Positions 1,084 through 46,268 of a stretch of DNA of 53,836 bases are shown piece after piece; position 1 is the first letter of the stretch, and the number at the start of each line of letters is the position of its first letter. The position numbers were made by a program, and so were the translations under genes. The DNA comes from Planctomycetota bacterium (lineage in GTDB: Bacteria > Planctomycetota > Phycisphaerae > Phycisphaerales > SM1A02): the NCBI GenBank assembly GCA_024230295.1, contig JAAERN010000074.1, positions 1 through 53,836 of the forward strand, read 5' to 3'. The notes beneath the pieces are model-generated. The model did no database searches. It was not told where the DNA came from and saw nothing but the letters and a program-made list of their open reading frames with translations.

Positions 1084-1506
1084 TCAGCACGCGGCCATTT
1101 CAGCGGCCCGAGCCCTCACCTGTTGAATCATTCCGTGCAGTCCATTGCTTCGCGTCGGACTGAGGTGTTCATGTAACTGAAGCGTAGAGAAAAAACCATT
1201 CAAGTCATACCGAACAATCTCTTCGGGAGTCATGCCCTGAATCGCAATCACCACCAAGGCTGCCAGTCCCTTGACAAGGCCCGAGTCGCTGTCGGCGAGC
1301 AGCGTCACGATGCCGTCATCCCGGTGCAGTGAGACCCAGACCACGCTTTGGCAGCCATGAATAAGGTTGTCTTCAACTCGCTCAGCATCCGACATCTCGG
1401 GGAGTTTCTCGCCAAGATCCATGATGTATCTGTAGCGGTCTTCCCAGTCATCGAGGAAAGCAAATGCCTCCTCAACCTCTGCAATGTTCGGCAGCATGTT
1501 GGACAT
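1084..1506 (-). CDS. sufE: SufE-family sulfur acceptor for Fe-S cluster assembly
   Basis: SufE accepts persulfide sulfur from the cysteine desulfurase SufS and passes it to the SufBCD scaffold in the cytoplasm. The 140-residue protein has the family length. It carries the catalytic motif HGCQSVVW with Cys52, matching Cys51 of E. coli SufE, preceded by the usual LGEKLPEMSD...RVEDNLI segment. An upstream in-frame extension exists, but family alignment and length favour the ATG at 1506 (MSNMLPNIAEVEE). An ATG at 1527 is the alternative. Neither start has a clear Shine-Dalgarno sequence. It sits 37 nt after mog and 23 nt before the permease on the same strand. No sufS or sufBCD is in the window. 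Confidence 0.88.
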   Translation of the reverse strand: MSNMLPNIAEVEEAFAFLDDWEDRYRYIMDLGEKLPEMSDAERVEDNLIHGCQSVVWVSLHRDDGIVTLLADSDSGLVKGLAALVVIAIQGMTPEEIVRYDLNGFFSTLQLHEHLSPTRSNGLHGMIQQVRARAAEMAAC

Positions 1507-2083: not shown

Positions 2084-2089
2084 AGGATA
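2084..2089 (-). promoter_or_regulatory. Putative -10 element of mog (TATCCT), leaderless start
   Basis: On the minus strand TATCCT lies 6 nt upstream of the mog ATG, with no Shine-Dalgarno sequence between. A transcript starting 6-7 nt after this hexamer would begin at or next to the start codon. No convincing -35 is seen, so this rests on the hexamer, its spacing and the recurrence of the pattern elsewhere in the window. Confidence 0.4.
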
Positions 2090-6116: not shown

Positions 6117-7021
6117 GTCGATCTGCCTCGGCTAGTTGGGCAATTGCCGCGCTGCTGGCCGGTGTCATTGGCATCTCGTTTGCGTCGCCACTTGCGAAAC
6201 TTGCAGTTCATGGTTCCGACATCGGATGGATTGGCGCCGCATTCTGGAGAACCACCCTCTCCATTCCAATCCTGTGGGCCGTGCTGCTTGCTACGCGGCG
6301 GACATCCACGGCTGATCGGCCTCGTGAGCGCATCAGCTGGTGGCCGCTGCTCATTCCAGGAGTTTTCTTCGCGGGCGACTTGCTGACGTGGCATCTCTCG
6401 TTTGCATGGACGACAGCGGCCAGCGCCACCCTCCTTGCAAATCTCGCCGTCGTCATCGTCGGATTCGCCAGTTGGCTGTGGCTGCGTGAACGCTTTGATG
6501 GCAGGTATGTGCTCGGCGCTCTGCTTGCCATCGGTGGTGTGCTCTGGCTCGTGACGACCGCCACCGGGCCGGCGGATCATCCCCTTCGAATGCGAGGGGA
6601 TCTTCTAGCGATGTCCACCGCCGTTTTTTACGCCGGCTACATCCTGTCAATCAAAGTGCTTCGAGCCAAATATCGAGCGATCACCCTGATGGCCGTTGGC
6701 ACGCTGGCATCAAGCGTCATCCTGCTTGCCGCGGTACTGATCGCAGGCGAGCCGCTCTTCCCTAGCGGCATGGCCACCTGGGGCTGGTTGGTGCTGCTGG
6801 CAATCGTGCCACACTGCCTCGGGCAAGGTCTGATCGTCTGGTCGCTCTCGGCGCTCCCCGCATCAATGGCCGCCGTCACCCTTCTGCTCCAGCCCGTTGC
6901 AACCTCGGTCTGGGGTTGGCTCATGCTCGGGGAGGCGCTCGGCCCAAGTCAGATCGTGGCGGGCCTCGTCGTCATTGCTGGCATCGTGCTTGCGAGGCTG
7001 GGTAGCATGCGCGGCCCATGA
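6113..7021 (+). CDS. EamA/DMT-family transporter
   Basis: The 302-residue protein has about ten hydrophobic segments in two homologous halves, as expected for 10-TM drug/metabolite transporters. The first half includes GVIGISFASPLAKLAVHGSD and LTWHLSFAWTTAASATLLAN, the second begins around MSTAVFYAGYILSIKVLRAK. The glycine-rich end of each half (YVLGALLAIGGVLWLV and GPSQIVAGLVVIAGIVLA) is characteristic of EamA domains. It starts in an ATGA overlap with the beta-CASP gene and ends in another with the esterase gene, forming a three-gene unit. The substrate cannot be predicted from the sequence. Confidence 0.9.
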   Translation: MSRSASASWAIAALLAGVIGISFASPLAKLAVHGSDIGWIGAAFWRTTLSIPILWAVLLATRRTSTADRPRERISWWPLLIPGVFFAGDLLTWHLSFAWTTAASATLLANLAVVIVGFASWLWLRERFDGRYVLGALLAIGGVLWLVTTATGPADHPLRMRGDLLAMSTAVFYAGYILSIKVLRAKYRAITLMAVGTLASSVILLAAVLIAGEPLFPSGMATWGWLVLLAIVPHCLGQGLIVWSLSALPASMAAVTLLLQPVATSVWGWLMLGEALGPSQIVAGLVVIAGIVLARLGSMRGP

Positions 7022-7683
7022 CGACTCTCCCACCGCTTCAAACGATTGTGACCCCTCCATCCCGAGACGGCGCGGCATCCGATGGCTGCCTGGTGCTGCT
7101 GCATGGCTACGGCGCCAATGCCAATGATCTGATGCCGCTGCGTGATGAGATCGCACCCACATGGACGGCTATTGCCGCCGAAGCCCCATACGATCTTGGT
7201 CCCGCGGGAATGCCCGGAGGCAGAGCCTGGTTCCACATCGCCCCCGACACGATGGGAGGCTTCCGGCTCGATATAGACGGGGCCCGAGAAGCACTGTTGC
7301 AACTGGCTGCAGAACTCCCTTTGGCAATCAACGAGGCGGGATGCACGGTCGAAGACACCGTCGTGCTCGGCTTCAGCCAAGGCGCGATGCTGGGGCATGC
7401 CCTCCTACTTCACGAGCACATGCCCATCCGCGGACTGGCTGCGTGCAGCGGACGAATTGTTCAGGAGATCTTTGGCAGCGGCGAAGGCGTCCCGGCCGAA
7501 ACACCGGTCTTTCTCTCGCACGGGACGCACGATGATCTGATCCCCATCACATCGGGGCATGCCATTCGCGCGTTCTACGAAGAGAACACACCGGCCAGTG
7601 TGAGTTGGTGCGAGGAACCGGTCGGTCACGGTATCGGGCCGGTCACACTCAAGGCGCTCCGGGATTGGTGCGACGGGCTGTAG
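7018..7683 (+). CDS. Alpha/beta hydrolase, phospholipase/carboxylesterase family
   Basis: The 221-residue protein matches the short esterase family that includes YpfH-like and acyl-protein thioesterase-like enzymes. It has the LLHGYGANANDL oxyanion loop (residues 27-38), the nucleophile elbow GFSQGA with Ser120, an acid residue at Asp172 or Asp173 in SHGTHDDLIPI, and catalytic His204 in VGHGI. There is no signal peptide, so it is probably cytoplasmic. It overlaps the EamA gene by 4 nt and is the last gene of the unit starting at 4740. The physiological ester substrate is unknown. Confidence 0.9.
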   Translation: MTTLPPLQTIVTPPSRDGAASDGCLVLLHGYGANANDLMPLRDEIAPTWTAIAAEAPYDLGPAGMPGGRAWFHIAPDTMGGFRLDIDGAREALLQLAAELPLAINEAGCTVEDTVVLGFSQGAMLGHALLLHEHMPIRGLAACSGRIVQEIFGSGEGVPAETPVFLSHGTHDDLIPITSGHAIRAFYEENTPASVSWCEEPVGHGIGPVTLKALRDWCDGL

Positions 7684-8785: not shown

Positions 8786-8813
8786 TTGAGCCGGAACGTG
8801 CCGCGGGTAGGAT
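8786..8813 (+). promoter_or_regulatory. Putative promoter of the first crcB gene
   Basis: TTGAGC (8786-8791) and TAGGAT (8808-8813) are separated by 16 nt. The -10 ends 6 nt before the GTG start codon of crcB at 8820, with no Shine-Dalgarno sequence. The transcript would begin at or within 1-2 nt of the start codon. Confidence 0.5.
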
Positions 8814-15924: not shown

Positions 15925-15998
15925 TGGGCCATACTGGACTTGAACCAGTGACCTCTTGTGTGTCATACAAGCGCGCTAGCCAACTGCGCCAATGGCCC
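15925..15998 (-). tRNA. tRNA-Val (anticodon GAC)
   Basis: The minus-strand sequence folds as a complete 74-nt tRNA. The acceptor stem pairs GGGCCAT with ATGGCCC, with A as discriminator. The anticodon arm is CTTGT / ATGACAC / ACAAG, placing GAC at 15962-15964, which reads the Val codons GUC and GUU. The T arm is ACTGG-TTCAAGT-CCAGT. The 3' CCA is not encoded. The gene stands alone, with a promoter 12 nt upstream and a hairpin directly downstream. Confidence 0.95.
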
Positions 15999-16058: not shown

Positions 16059-16064
16059 TACCTT
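16059..16064 (+). promoter_or_regulatory. Putative -10 element of the mazG-like gene (TACCTT)
   Basis: GGTACCTT ends 7 nt before the ATG at 16072 and no Shine-Dalgarno sequence is present. No good -35 is seen. This suggests a near-leaderless transcript, divergent from the tRNA-Val promoter a few tens of bases away. Confidence 0.4.
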
Positions 16065-16071
16065 TCCCTCC

Positions 16072-16365
16072 ATGCAGGACCCCACCCTCAGCGCTTTTCA
16101 GCAGTTCATCCGAGATCGATACCACGAGACCGATTCTGCCAGAGGTCCAGCCCGAACCTTCCTGTGGTTCATGGAAGAAGTGGGCGAACTCGCTGAAGCC
16201 ATCGCGCTCCGAGAACGCGGCGATGGGGATAATGTCAATCTTCGCGAGGAGTTTGCAGATGTGTTGGCGTGGCTGACCACCCTTGCAAACATCACTGGCG
16301 TCGATCTTGCCCAAGCGGTGCACGAGAAGTACGTCGTCGATGGCGGCCCCGCCGGCACGAAGTAG
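16072..16365 (+). CDS. MazG-like nucleotide pyrophosphohydrolase
   Basis: This 97-residue protein is a single MazG-type all-alpha domain. Such enzymes hydrolyse nucleoside triphosphates to monophosphates with Mg2+, often as house-cleaning of abnormal nucleotides. The metal-binding signature is EEVGELAEAI near residue 36, completed by EEFADVLAW near 61, giving the EExxE...ExxD pattern. The ATG at 16072 (MQDPTLSAFQQFI) lacks a Shine-Dalgarno and follows the TACCTT hexamer. It lies 34 nt upstream of trpA on the same strand, though trpA has its own hexamer. The exact nucleotide substrate is unknown. Confidence 0.9.
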   Translation: MQDPTLSAFQQFIRDRYHETDSARGPARTFLWFMEEVGELAEAIALRERGDGDNVNLREEFADVLAWLTTLANITGVDLAQAVHEKYVVDGGPAGTK

Positions 16366-16385
16366 TACGCCTCTCGCCCAATAGG

Positions 16386-16391
16386 TACCCT
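16386..16391 (+). promoter_or_regulatory. Putative -10 element of trpA (TACCCT)
   Basis: GGTACCCT ends 8 nt before the trpA ATG at 16400, in the short gap after the mazG-like gene. The start codon has no Shine-Dalgarno. The identical GGTACCCTG string also occurs about 60 nt upstream of tig (17214-17222). Confidence 0.4.
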
Positions 16392-16399
16392 GCCCAGCC

Positions 16400-17188
16400 A
16401 TGTCCCGGATCAATCAGATCTTCGATGACTTGCGAAGCCGCCAGCAACGAGCGCTCATGCCCTTCGTTGTCGCGGGCTATCCCGGGCTTGACACAACCGA
16501 GATGCTCTTGTCCACCCTGCATGATGCTGGCGCTGCGATCGCGGAAATCGGCATCCCGTTTTCCGATTCGATTGCAGATGGCCCCATCATCGCTGCGGCC
16601 ATGCACGAGGCGCTCACATCCGGAACGACGATTGACTCCATCCTCGGCACCGTACAACGTATCAGGCCCCACACACCGATTGGCTTGGTCGCCATGGTGA
16701 GCCACTCGATCGTTCACCGTCGGGGAGGAGCAGCGTTCATTGAACAACTTGCTTCCGCTGGATTCGACGGCGTCATCATCCCTGACATCGATCTCCATGA
16801 GGCCGATGCCCTCCTTCCGGCTATCGATGCTGCCGACCTCTCATTCTCGATGCTGATTGCTCCAACGACAACTGAAACGCGGCTACAACAACTTCTGCAA
16901 CGCTGTCGAGGCTTTGTGTACCTGCTTGCACGAACAGGGCTGACAGGAGCACGAGCAGAGCTGCCCGACCTGGGGCCGCGTACTGAGCAGGTTCGCAGGT
17001 TCACCCAACTGCCTATCGCCGCGGGATTCGGCATTTCAACGCCGGAACAGGTCCGCGAGGCCACCACGCACTGTGATGCGGCCATTGTCGGCTCCGCGCT
17101 GGTCCGCCGAATGGAGCACACGGAAGATCCAGCCTCCGCTGGACGTGACTTCGTTGAAATGCTCGCCAGTGGCCTCAGCGGCCCCTGA
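16400..17188 (+). CDS. trpA: Tryptophan synthase alpha chain
   Basis: TrpA cleaves indole-3-glycerol phosphate to indole and glyceraldehyde 3-phosphate in the last step of tryptophan synthesis. The 262-residue TIM barrel keeps catalytic Glu49 and Asp60 at the same numbering as the enterobacterial enzyme, in AEIGIPFSDSIADGP. It also has GYPG (27-30), GVIIPDID, and the phosphate-binding GFGIS (about 213) and IVGSALV (about 233) loops. No trpB or other trp gene lies in the window, although the alpha and beta genes are usually adjacent. It is followed by tig at 89 nt. The start codon lacks a Shine-Dalgarno. Confidence 0.96.
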   Translation: MSRINQIFDDLRSRQQRALMPFVVAGYPGLDTTEMLLSTLHDAGAAIAEIGIPFSDSIADGPIIAAAMHEALTSGTTIDSILGTVQRIRPHTPIGLVAMVSHSIVHRRGGAAFIEQLASAGFDGVIIPDIDLHEADALLPAIDAADLSFSMLIAPTTTETRLQQLLQRCRGFVYLLARTGLTGARAELPDLGPRTEQVRRFTQLPIAAGFGISTPEQVREATTHCDAAIVGSALVRRMEHTEDPASAGRDFVEMLASGLSGP

Positions 17189-20564: not shown

Positions 20565-20593
20565 TTGACGGAAAGCCGAAGTAGCGATATCTT
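20565..20593 (+). promoter_or_regulatory. Promoter of rpmB
   Basis: TTGACG (20565-20570) and TATCTT (20588-20593) are separated by 17 nt, giving a close match to a sigma-70 promoter. It lies 40 nt before the rpmB start and just after the clpX stop. It implies a leader of roughly 30 nt carrying the GGAGG Shine-Dalgarno. Confidence 0.75.
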
Positions 20594-20632
20594 CTGGGAT
20601 TCACCCCCTTTTTTGGCACCGGAGGCACTCAT

Positions 20633-21225: not shown

Positions 21226-23070
21226 GTGGCGACTCGAGACGAAATAGAACGGGTACGGGATGCAACTGACCTTGCCAGTTTGATTGGCGAGTTTGTCGCA
21301 TTGCAGCATCGCGGGCGTGAGCACGTCGGGCTGTGTCCGTTCCACGACGATTCTCGTCCCTCCTTCGCTGTCGTGACCCACAAAGAGTCAGCCTTCTACA
21401 AATGCCACGCCTGCGGGGCAGCTGGTGATTGTTTCAGGTTTGTTCAGGAGCACCTAGGCAAGGACTTTGGGGAGTCCCTCCGGTTTCTGGCAGAACGAGC
21501 CGGCATCGAGCTGACCCGAGGCCATGATCCGGAACAAGAGCAAACCGCCTCACGCAAGACCTGGCTTCGTAAGGCACTTGATGCGGGGCATGCCCACTTT
21601 CAACGACAACTTGCCGGTGATGCATCCGGCCGCGATGCCCGCGAAGTGATTGAGGCCCGAGGCATCTCACCTGCCATGGTCGAGGCGTTCGGTATCGGCT
21701 GCGCTGGCGATGGCTGGAGCACCCTTCGCGACGAGCTTGCCTGCGAGGCGCTCCCCGCCAAGGTGTCGGTTGCCGCCGGCCTCCTCAAGCAGCGAGAAGA
21801 TGAACATACCTGGGATGCCTTCAGGCATCGGCTCATGTTCCCGATTTCCGATGACACGGGGAGGCCAATCGCATTTGGCGGACGGATCCTCAGCGAAGAC
21901 GAAGAACCGAAGTATCTCAACTCAAGCGAACATGACCTCTTTCACAAGAGCCGCACGCTCTACGGCCTGCATCTGGCTCGCCGCTCAATCATGGCCGAGG
22001 GGCAGGCCATCGTCGCCGAGGGATACACCGACGTTATCGCTTGCCATCAGGCTGGATTCACGAATGTGGTCGCCACCCTAGGCACTGCAATGACCGAGCA
22101 ACACGCCCGCCATCTTTCCAGGCTGTGCAAAGTGGCGGTCTTGCTCTTTGATGGGGACGAGGCTGGGCAGCGGGCTGCTGAACGAGCCATTCCCATCGTG
22201 CTCGCCCACGACATCGATGTCCTGATTTGTGTACTGCCAGACAACACGGACCCAGACACACTTCTGCGCCAACCCAACGGGCAGAGTCGCTTCCGCCAAG
22301 CGCTCGACGAGTCAGTCGACGCCTTCGAGTTCCTGCTCCGCCGGCTGGAAGTCGACCTGCAAAGCACCAGCGGACTCTCTGCAAGGCAAAAAGCCACCGA
22401 AGACTTTGCGCAAGCCGTTGTTCGCTTCGGCATCCACAAGGCTGCGCCGCTTCGCCGAGCCATGGTGACATCCCGTCTCGCAGAATTGGCAGGTGTTGCA
22501 CCGGCGGTCATTGCTGAGCTTCTTGCTCACAAAGCCGATCGAGATCCAAGTGGACGCACTTCCAATCGCGAAGAGTCCACCGAGCTTCCGGGAATGGAAT
22601 CTGAAGTCGAGGTGGCACCCGCTCTTCGAAGAGCTGAACTCGATGTCCTCGCTGTGGCAATCCATTCGCAGCATGCTGATATCTCAGTTCTCCACTCCGG
22701 GCTACCGTTGGCCGATCCAACGGCAAGGCGGATTGCGCAAGCCATCCAAGAAACCCATCGAAGCGGCGGCGAGCTCACAATGCAAACACTGCTGGACTCG
22801 CTTCCTGCCGAGGATGACCGGAAAATCGCTTCCGATCTCTACTTCGACGGCGAACGATTGATTGAAGCTTCTGAAGGCGATCAAGACGACGCGATCGCAG
22901 CATGCTGCGATGCGCTCGATCGATGCCGCCGCGCACTTGATTCACGACAACGTATGGCTGACTGGAAAGCGTCTGCGGCGAGAGATCCGCAAGCGGCCGC
23001 CAAGGTCATTGAACATCTCAGAGGAATTGGCCCACGTGCTGCGGCGATGCCGCGGCCATCCGGGCAATAG
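21226..23070 (+). CDS. dnaG: DNA primase
   Basis: DnaG makes RNA primers at the replication fork. The 614-residue protein has the N-terminal CHC2 zinc finger (Cys37, His40, Cys60, Cys63 in LCPFHDD...YKCHACG). The primase catalytic core follows, with a TOPRIM domain: [11 protein letters not shown] supplies the catalytic Glu and [13 protein letters not shown] the DxD-type acid residues. The C-terminal third (about 430-600) is a divergent helical helicase-interacting region. It starts at a GTG (21226) behind a GAGGG Shine-Dalgarno. rpoD follows after 34 nt, recalling the rpsU-dnaG-rpoD macromolecular synthesis operon, here without rpsU. Confidence 0.96.
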
Positions 23071-23104
23071 AAGGTCTGCTGATCATCCCAGGAGGACTGC
23101 ACCA

Positions 23105-24937
23105 GTGATTACACCCGACACACCAACCACACACCCGACCATTCGGGACCTCATCCTTTTCGGTCGTGACCGAGGATGGATCTCTTTTGAGGAGCTGAAT
23201 ACTGCTATTCCTGATGAGTACATCCGTCCCGACAAGATGGACGAACTGCTCATCATCACATCTTCCTATGGGATTCAATTTACGAACCACCTGGACAAGC
23301 GTACCTTTGCTGGTCCACACTTCTATGCGCCTTTGCAGACAAACCTGCGGTTCAAACGTGACAATCCAAAGCGAACCTTTAATCTCGCCACCGAGGAAGA
23401 GATCCTCGCCCAAGAGGCGCAGGAGGCTGCCGAACAGCGTGCTGCCGAGGAAGCTGCCGGGAATCACATTGAACCACCAGACCCACTCCTCGATGAAGCA
23501 GAAGCCGCAGCTGTCCAAGAGGCAATCGGCGAGCCTGGGTCTAAGAAGATAGACGACCCCATCCGAATGTATCTGACACAGATGGGAACGATCCCACTGC
23601 TGACTCGTGAAGAAGAAATCCGACTCGCGAAAAAGATCGAGACCACCAGAATGATCTTCCGGCGTCTCGTGCTGGAGTCAGACTTTGCAGCCCGTGCAGC
23701 CTGTGAAGTTCTGCAGCAGGTACACGATGGCGAACTTCCATTCGATAGAACGATGCGGATTTCCACAGCCGAAGAGAATGCAAAGGAAAAGATTGCAAGC
23801 CGGATTCCGGTCAACATGGGATCGGTGCGGCGCATGCTTCAAGCGAATGAGGCCGACTGGAATCGCATCTGCGAGGGTGTCGCGGATCGCACGCGGTCAC
23901 GCCTCATTGAATCGATGAACAGACGGCGGAGACGCATGGCCACGCTGCTCGAGGAGTGCTGCCTACGGACCGCCAAGATCCAGCCCCTGCTTCGAAAGCT
24001 TCAATCAGTCAATCGGAAGTTGCAGGAAGTTCGCGGAGAACTCAAGCGAGCCGAAACTCGCTCCTCACGCTACGACGCTGATGATCTCGCCGTTATGCGA
24101 GAAGAACTGCGAGGACTCGGAGATCTGGTGCTTGAATCACCTGATGAGTTGGCCAGCCGAATCCAGCAGTTGGAAGGTGTCTTTGAAGAGTACGAGCAGG
24201 GCAAGCGTGACCTGAGCGGCGGCAACCTCCGACTCGTCGTGTCCATTGCCAAGAAGTACCGCAATCGAGGCCTCCCGTTCCTGGACATCATTCAGGAAGG
24301 GAACACTGGTCTCATGCGAGCAGTGGACAAGTATGAATACATGCGTGGCTACAAGTTCTCCACCTACGCAACATGGTGGATTCGGCAGGCTATTACTCGT
24401 GCCATTGCCGACCACGCTCGGACGATCCGTGTCCCGGTACACATGATCGAGACCATGTCCAAACTTCGTACGATTCAGAAGCGACTGCTTCAGATCATGG
24501 GCCGAGAGCCCACGATCGAGGAACTGGCAGTCGAAGCAGACATGAGCGTTGATGAGACCAGGCGTGTCATGAACATCTCACGGCACCCGATCAGCCTGGA
24601 TCGTCCAGTTGGAGAGTCTGAGGACTCCCAATTCGGCGACTTCATTGAGGACGAACGGCAGCAGGCTCCCTCTGAGACAGCCACCAGCGAGATGATTCGA
24701 ACTCGAATCAATGATGTGCTGAAAACACTGACGTATCGAGAACGTGAGATTCTCAAGCTTCGATACGGCATTGGTGATGGATACACCTACACGCTGGAAG
24801 AGGTCGGTCGCATCTTCAAAGTGACCCGCGAACGCGTCCGGCAGGTTGAGTCCAAGGCTGTTCGCAAACTGCAGCATCCCGTACGCCGGCGACGATTGGC
24901 CAGCTTTATGGAAGACACCAAGCCGATTGAGGGCTGA
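23105..24937 (+). CDS. rpoD: Primary RNA polymerase sigma factor (sigma-70)
   Basis: The housekeeping sigma factor recognises -35 and -10 promoter elements. The 610-residue protein has region 1.1 (about 1-80), region 1.2 ([20 protein letters not shown]), a non-conserved helical insertion (about 180-370), regions 2.1-2.4 ([40 protein letters not shown]), region 3 and region 4 ([29 protein letters not shown]). The frame is open 81 codons upstream over the dnaG 3' end, but a strong AGGAGG precedes the GTG at 23105, which fits the start of region 1.1. It is followed by an intrinsic terminator and is probably co-transcribed with dnaG. Confidence 0.96.
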
Positions 24938-39035: not shown

Positions 39036-39041
39036 TACGAT
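39036..39041 (+). promoter_or_regulatory. Putative -10 element of the divergent ABC-2 permease gene (TACGAT)
   Basis: TACGAT ends 8 nt before the ATG at 39050, in the same arrangement as trpA and mog. There is no Shine-Dalgarno sequence before that ATG. No clear -35 is visible. Confidence 0.35.
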
Positions 39042-46262: not shown

Positions 46263-46268
46263 AGTGTA
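46263..46268 (-). promoter_or_regulatory. Putative -10 element of the DUF1573 gene (TACACT)
   Basis: On the minus strand TACACT ends 9 nt before the ATG at 46253 and there is no Shine-Dalgarno between. This supports the shorter start and a leaderless or nearly leaderless transcript. No -35 is clear. Confidence 0.35.

Follow-up and report, generated by a model that had tools for sequence, protein, structure and literature searches.

Start-adjacent TAnnnT hexamers as probable -10 elements of leaderless genes in an uncultivated marine Phycisphaerales genome

In the genome of an uncultivated marine member of the Phycisphaerales (Planctomycetota), a hexamer of the form TAnnnT recurs 6-9 nt before start codons that lack a Shine-Dalgarno sequence. 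On the sequence evidence, we consider it highly probable that these hexamers are sigma-70 -10 elements that abut the start codon and give leaderless mRNAs. This leaderless-promoter reading, which the original prediction had put forward, is supported at the sequence level by the dependence of the hexamer on operon position, by a depletion of purines just before the start codon, and by the conservation of the arrangement at mazG, mog and trpA. The housekeeping sigma-70 factor (RpoD) would read the -10 element, and RNA polymerase would begin on the first nucleotide of the start codon. The resulting mRNAs would presumably be bound via their 5'-terminal start codon by ribosomes carrying initiator tRNA, and operon-internal and other genes would use a Shine-Dalgarno sequence or coupling to the preceding gene.

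Six start-adjacent hexamers in the window

The window, that is, the whole stretch of DNA that we analysed, is an entire contig (C74) of 53,836 bases, from a genome of 2.695 Mb in 180 contigs. Its G+C content is 56-61% (in 5-kb steps), and the nearest relatives of its RpoD are found in uncultivated Phycisphaerales MAGs, with 95% identity to the RpoD of Arabian9_MAG_11. The original prediction named six genes with TAnnnT 6-9 nt before the start, and all six hexamers are found at those gaps. The gene identities match the names given: we find MoCF_biosynth (mog), CrcB twice, MazG, Trp_syntA and ribosomal L28. The ABC2_membrane_4 (weak) and DUF1573 matches are both below the curated cut-offs.

Two of the six hexamers lie close together on the plus strand. 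TACCTT (16059..16064), the predicted -10 element of the mazG-like gene, is 7 nt before ATG 16072, and the gene (16072..16365, PF03819, E 7.9e-10) is predicted to be leaderless. So is trpA (16400..17188, plus strand, PF00290), with its predicted -10 element TACCCT (16386..16391) 8 nt before ATG 16400. Also on the plus strand are TACGAT (39036..39041), the predicted -10 element of an ABC-2 permease-like gene, 8 nt before ATG 39050, and TAGGAT (8808..8813), a candidate -10 element of crcB-1 (PF02537), 6 nt before GTG 8820. On the minus strand, TATCCT (2084..2089) is the predicted -10 element of mog (PF00994), 6 nt before ATG 2077, and TACACT (46263..46268) that of the DUF1573 gene, 9 nt before ATG 46253. 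The tRNA-Val (15925-15998, minus strand) and mazG are divergent, and both the mazG hexamer and any promoter of the tRNA fall within the 73 bases that separate them.

Five of the six starts are supported. The start codons of mazG, trpA, mog and the ABC-2 gene are backed by their closest orthologues, with alignments beginning at residues 1-5. For the DUF1573 gene, the spacing is valid only for ATG 46253, the alternative ATG 46349 having no hexamer; in the orthologue from the same genus (L323), TACACT likewise stands at gap 9, and the alignment starts at residue 5 of the shorter form. The start of crcB-1 is ambiguous, and its spacing needs GTG 8820 and not ATG 8835. In this gene, the AGGA within TAGGAT also scores as a Shine-Dalgarno core.

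The gene caller flags two further starts in the window. The sufE-like gene after mog (1084-1506, minus strand) has TACCAT 9 nt before ATG 1506 and may be a seventh leaderless candidate that the original prediction missed; ATG 1527 and ATG 1497 are also possible starts. The TAnnnT at the start of the gene at 7018-7683, which overlaps its upstream gene by 4 nt, is probably there by chance.

Enrichment in the genome sample

The genome sample consists of 20 pieces, none shorter than 1 kb (767,960 bases, or 28% of the genome, the window included). Gene calling relied on coding score and start-codon type alone, used no upstream information, and gave 516 genes with 513 usable starts, clpX and dnaG being cases in which the caller still starts too late. 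The motif is scored when its first T precedes the start by 12-15 nt, which is a gap of 6-9 nt. TAnnnT is found at 77 of the 513 starts (15.0%), against a mean of 2.7% in four windows further upstream and against 14 of 3816 internal ATGs. The peak is sharp, with 5.1, 3.7, 2.5 and 3.7% of starts at 12, 13, 14 and 15 nt, 1.0% at 16 nt, and at most 0.8% at the remaining distances from 6 to 28 nt. The 6-9 nt range originally noted by eye coincides exactly with the enriched one.

That these hexamers result from chance, from base composition, or from a biased choice of examples or starts is an explanation to which we give almost no weight. It is true that the examples were chosen by a reader, that TAnnnT is short, and that some starts in the genome are uncertain, but outside the window the motif is still found at 70 of 479 starts, and the upstream windows and internal ATGs are negative. 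TAnnnT comes top of 640 gapped patterns of three letters (77 vs 13.8), the following ranks being mostly pieces of the Shine-Dalgarno sequence, and in the same count the sampled starts show no enrichment of permuted patterns (ATnnnT, TTnnnA and AAnnnT, for example). With the hexamers restricted to those with C or T as third base, which cannot be stop codons, there are 57 cases vs 8.5. The excess survives three other start rules: 44/512 for the longest open reading frame (controls 10-18), 60/511 for the first ATG (controls 11-18) and 30/509 for the second ATG (controls 7-9). In genes with a single possible start, the motif is within 11-16 nt in 13 of 61, compared with 3 and 0 in two upstream windows. 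The same pipeline run on 150 kb of Escherichia coli K-12 as a negative control gives 3/102 with a background of 5.6%. As a positive control, 200 kb of Deinococcus deserti plasmid 1 gives 9/105 with a background of 1.7%, and there the hexamer is found in 0/19 operon-internal genes and 0/38 genes with a Shine-Dalgarno sequence. In this pipeline, the present genome behaves like Deinococcus.

A Shine-Dalgarno core is present at 33% of the starts; in an upstream window the figure is 11%, and ahead of internal ATGs it is 7%. The check proposed with the original prediction, a genome-wide count of TAnnnT at 6-9 nt with and without a Shine-Dalgarno sequence, comes out as expected on the 28% sample: the hexamer is at 76 of 345 starts without the core and at 1 of 168 with it (Fisher 1.5e-13). 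For operon position, we inferred transcription units from strand and gap only; operon-first genes are divergent or have a tandem gap above 20 nt, operon-internal genes have a tandem gap of 20 nt or less, and 10 genes with no called upstream neighbour are excluded. The hexamer is found in 73/392 operon-first genes and in 3/111 operon-internal ones (Fisher 4e-6). Each contrast persists within the other. The Shine-Dalgarno contrast is 72/264 without the core vs 1/128 with it amongst operon-first genes, and the operon contrast is 72/264 vs 3/75 amongst genes without the core.

These counts bear on a different reading, in which the hexamer is a translation signal in the mRNA, for example an A/U-containing contact site for ribosomal protein S1 or the ribosome that replaces the Shine-Dalgarno sequence. 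The hexamer does replace the Shine-Dalgarno sequence at nearly the same place, and for the non-Shine-Dalgarno genes of one planctomycete the text of an earlier study leaves the choice between leaderless initiation and S1 undecided (Nakagawa et al. 2017, PMC5397173); that study includes one planctomycete genome, for which its passages give no hexamer, spacing or operon test. A translation signal, however, should serve operon-internal genes too, and only the 3 of 75 above have it. Its fixed letters T, A and T are exactly those of a -10 element, other A/T patterns are not enriched, and a translation signal does not predict the purine depletion 7-9 nt downstream that we describe below. We therefore judge a translation signal to be very unlikely.

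The anti-Shine-Dalgarno sequence looks normal in this genome, where a 13-base pattern for the 16S tail is found at G000:C143:20-32; of the 61 genomes searched, 41 (the present one among them) contain the pattern. A search of the genome with RF00177 gives no match, which proves little because the same search is positive in only 9 of 14 control genomes, and the 13-base pattern was used instead. The 16S 3' tail lies 20 bases from the start of its contig, as expected if the assembly broke inside the 16S gene.

The claim that leaderless transcription is common in this organism is thus supported by the sequence, where "common" means an excess of the strict hexamer of about 63 in 513 sampled genes (12%) and its presence, among operon-first genes that lack a Shine-Dalgarno core, in 72 of 264. 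In the remaining 192 the strict hexamer is absent, and therefore other initiation must exist or their starts must be wrong. A weight-matrix model places about a third of the 264 at the right spacing (fraction 0.459, with 0.71 of it at the four main positions); such estimates of the leaderless fraction are approximate, and true cases would be missed where the start is wrong. We dropped an estimate of the total fraction that adds a TAnnnT bonus to the choice of starts. The rise from 77 to 118 that it produces is uninformative because seven decoy motifs also gained, by 19-57.

Transcript start and promoter form

In bacteria, RNA polymerase usually initiates some 7-10 nt downstream of the -10 element, with a preference for purines and with 7-8 nt as the commonest distance. 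Gaps of 6, 7, 8 and 9 nt put the first base of the start codon at position 7, 8, 9 and 10 after the hexamer. The hexamer could then be a true -10 element from which transcription starts 1-5 nt before the start codon, to give very short leaders, and that the gap varies over 6-9 nt while the commonest initiation distance is 7-8 nt speaks for this possibility. The purines speak against it. Counting from position 7 up to the last base before the start codon, 19 of 102 bases are purines, vs 43.5% at equal distances in genes without the hexamer. The depletion follows the spacing of each gene: when the spacings are shuffled among the same genes, a value as low occurs in 1 of 5000 trials. Random draws of non-hit genes for the 51 genes with a testable position give 44.4 +/- 4.7, and 19 or fewer in 0 of 10000. 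We consider this resampling the better test, as the Fisher p for the depletion reuses the same non-hit genes many times. The trend is the same in 64 Phycisphaerales rpoD loci (14/72 vs 43%) and in 15 other planctomycete genomes pooled (14/56 vs 42%). Because purines are depleted ahead of the start codon, transcription probably begins at its first base. The purine depletion is the best sequence evidence pointing to leaderless transcripts over short leaders, which we regard as unlikely.

For the leaderless promoters, we find a biased flank upstream of the aligned TAnnnT (C in 55% four bases before it and G in 57% two bases before) and a modest excess of the extended -10 TGn (14/77 vs 7%, p 9e-4). 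A -35 element is not enriched at the leaderless starts: the mean best match is 2.77 vs 2.65 +/- 0.10 when shuffled, 31 of 200 shuffles are as high, and a match of 5/6 or better occurs in 2 of 77 hexamer starts. With the -35 element weak or absent, recognition would therefore rest on T-12, A-11 and T-7, with some help from the extended -10. Motif EM on all operon-first genes returns a blend of two signals, and on control sets codon-like patterns.

The primary sigma factor presumed to read these -10 elements is encoded in the window by rpoD (22862..24937, plus strand), with Sigma70 regions 1.1, 1.2, 2, 3 and 4 by Pfam; its true start is uncertain, and the caller chose GTG 23105. The sequence of region 2.4 is ordinary for -10 recognition, and we take it to resemble that of E. 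coli sigma-70. The N-terminal part of RpoD is long, with region 1.1 from residue 92 and region 1.2 from residue 232 of the longest frame.

The original prediction set these genes beside rpmB (PF00830), described as having a clear Shine-Dalgarno sequence and a normal leader, and the sequence agrees with this description. A promoter-like pair TTGACG-17-TATCTT (20565..20593, plus strand) is followed by a leader with GGAGG (20621-20625) before ATG 20633. This is one example and not proof of a second promoter class, because -35/-10 pairs are not enriched in any group of operon-first genes: they occur in 3/128 with a Shine-Dalgarno sequence (1 on the opposite strand; shuffle mean 1.7, maximum 5), in 2/72 with a start-adjacent TAnnnT (2 on the opposite strand; shuffle mean 0.5) and in 1/192 with neither signal (shuffle mean 3.6).

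Conservation and occurrence in other organisms

We set the starts of orthologues by a rule blind to upstream sequence and counted TAnnnT at 12-15 nt. The hexamer is present in 22 of 36 orthologues of mazG, in 8 of 19 of mog (including the 7 closest of 7), in 13 of 44 of trpA (including the 5 closest of 5, with 31 of 44 lacking it) and in 3 of the 7 alignable orthologues of the DUF1573 gene, and eight control windows per gene have 0-3 matches each. The hexamer and its spacing are often kept in mazG, mog and trpA orthologues, and the flanking DNA is otherwise mostly unalike. For the ABC-2 gene, 4 of 29 orthologues have it at 12-15 nt, which is not above the control windows (0-3); by eye, TACCAT at gap 10 is seen in a further four. 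The comparison genes have no start-adjacent TAnnnT, with 0/27 orthologues of tig, 0/49 of dnaG and 0/28 of FAA hydrolase. Rows were excluded when the N terminus was unalignable, when no start codon was near the projected start, or when the upstream sequence was a duplicate (mazG 14/50, trpA 13/57, mog 10/29, DUF1573 22/29, ABC-2 0/29, tig 12/39, dnaG 8/57, FAA hydrolase 0/28 and clpX 42/43). The tig orthologues (17278 in the window) have TAnnnT 32-35 nt before the start in 7/27 and a Shine-Dalgarno core in 15/27, perhaps a conserved leadered promoter.

The linkage of mazG and trpA is seen in the window (16072-17188) and in loci L002-L063, L066, L073 and L233-L261. Amongst 39 mazG-linked trpA orthologues, the hexamer is found in 0/19 that lie 15 nt or less from the mazG stop and in 10/20 further away. 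Part of this contrast is a constraint of space, since near the mazG stop the hexamer would lie over the end of mazG. Thus trpA either abuts or overlaps the mazG stop or stands apart, and half of those that stand apart have their own start-adjacent TAnnnT.

We surveyed other genomes for TAnnnT at 12-15 nt, with the background given in brackets; the samples are small. In the same order or class the counts are 5/60 (2.1%) for G095, 2/49 (2.6%) for G034, 4/59 (0.4%) for G002, 8/69 (3.6%) for G077 and 0/36 (14.6%) for G127. For other members of the phylum, they are 7/55 (3.2%) for G056, 8/68 (1.8%) for G136, 1/55 (2.3%) for G121, 2/61 (1.6%) for G066, 1/37 (5.4%) for G069, 2/43 (12.8%) for G122, 1/38 (11.2%) for G107, 2/23 (7.6%) for G015, 6/60 (15.8%) for G017 and 2/36 (4.9%) for G040. 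The 64 Phycisphaerales rpoD loci together give 48/508 (2.6%), and 16 loci from Chlamydiae, Lentisphaerae, Verrucomicrobia and others give 13/113 (7.3%). In these small samples, some high-GC planctomycete genomes are above background, and the low-GC planctomycetes have no TAnnnT excess over it. Genomes G056 and G136 (loci L208-L215), both above background, are outside the class of the window.

Leaderless genes led by TANNNT have been described in Actinobacteria, Deinococcus-Thermus and others (Zheng et al. 2011, PMC3160421). The genes reported here are like those in motif, in its position about 12 bp before the start, in lacking a Shine-Dalgarno sequence and in being operon-proximal only. The groups with more than 20% leaderless genes in that study include Actinobacteria and Deinococcus-Thermus, and its text does not mention "Planctomycet". 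In Deinococcus-Thermus, a TANNNT adjoining the start codon and needing no -35 element is experimentally a promoter (Zhong et al. 2025, PMC12340547). Here too TANNNT is beside the start codon, and D. deserti has the same signature in our pipeline; the phylum is a different one, and the domain-wide survey of that paper (Fig. S7, Tables S6-S7) may include planctomycetes. An extensive leaderless transcriptome is reported for Mycobacterium tuberculosis, in a text that contains TANNNT (Cortes et al. 2013, PMC3898074); in that organism, from another phylum, 5' ends were measured, whereas the present case is predicted from sequence. GeneMarkS-2 is reported to predict leaderless transcription in 21.6% of bacterial species (PMC9581028), and Phycisphaerae appear in a table of anti-Shine-Dalgarno types (PMC10783764). 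Our literature search of titles, abstracts and passages has no report of leaderless genes in Phycisphaerae among the matches listed, and domain-wide supplementary tables may contain one.

The leaderless start is a known mechanism, and its probable signature is seen here, in sequence, in this uncultured marine group. A controlled sequence signature of leaderless transcription is thereby extended to that group, and it gives start-codon prediction in these genomes a usable rule: tools that look for a Shine-Dalgarno sequence would misplace some starts. We think it fairly likely that, in Phycisphaerales and some other high-GC Planctomycetota, leaderless initiation from a -10 element only is a major and conserved mode, and that single genes like trpA have switched between leaderless initiation and translational coupling with the preceding gene, depending on whether the two are a few tens of bp apart. 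The mazG-trpA pair serves as a natural experiment on the passage of a gene between upstream coupling and its own leaderless promoter.
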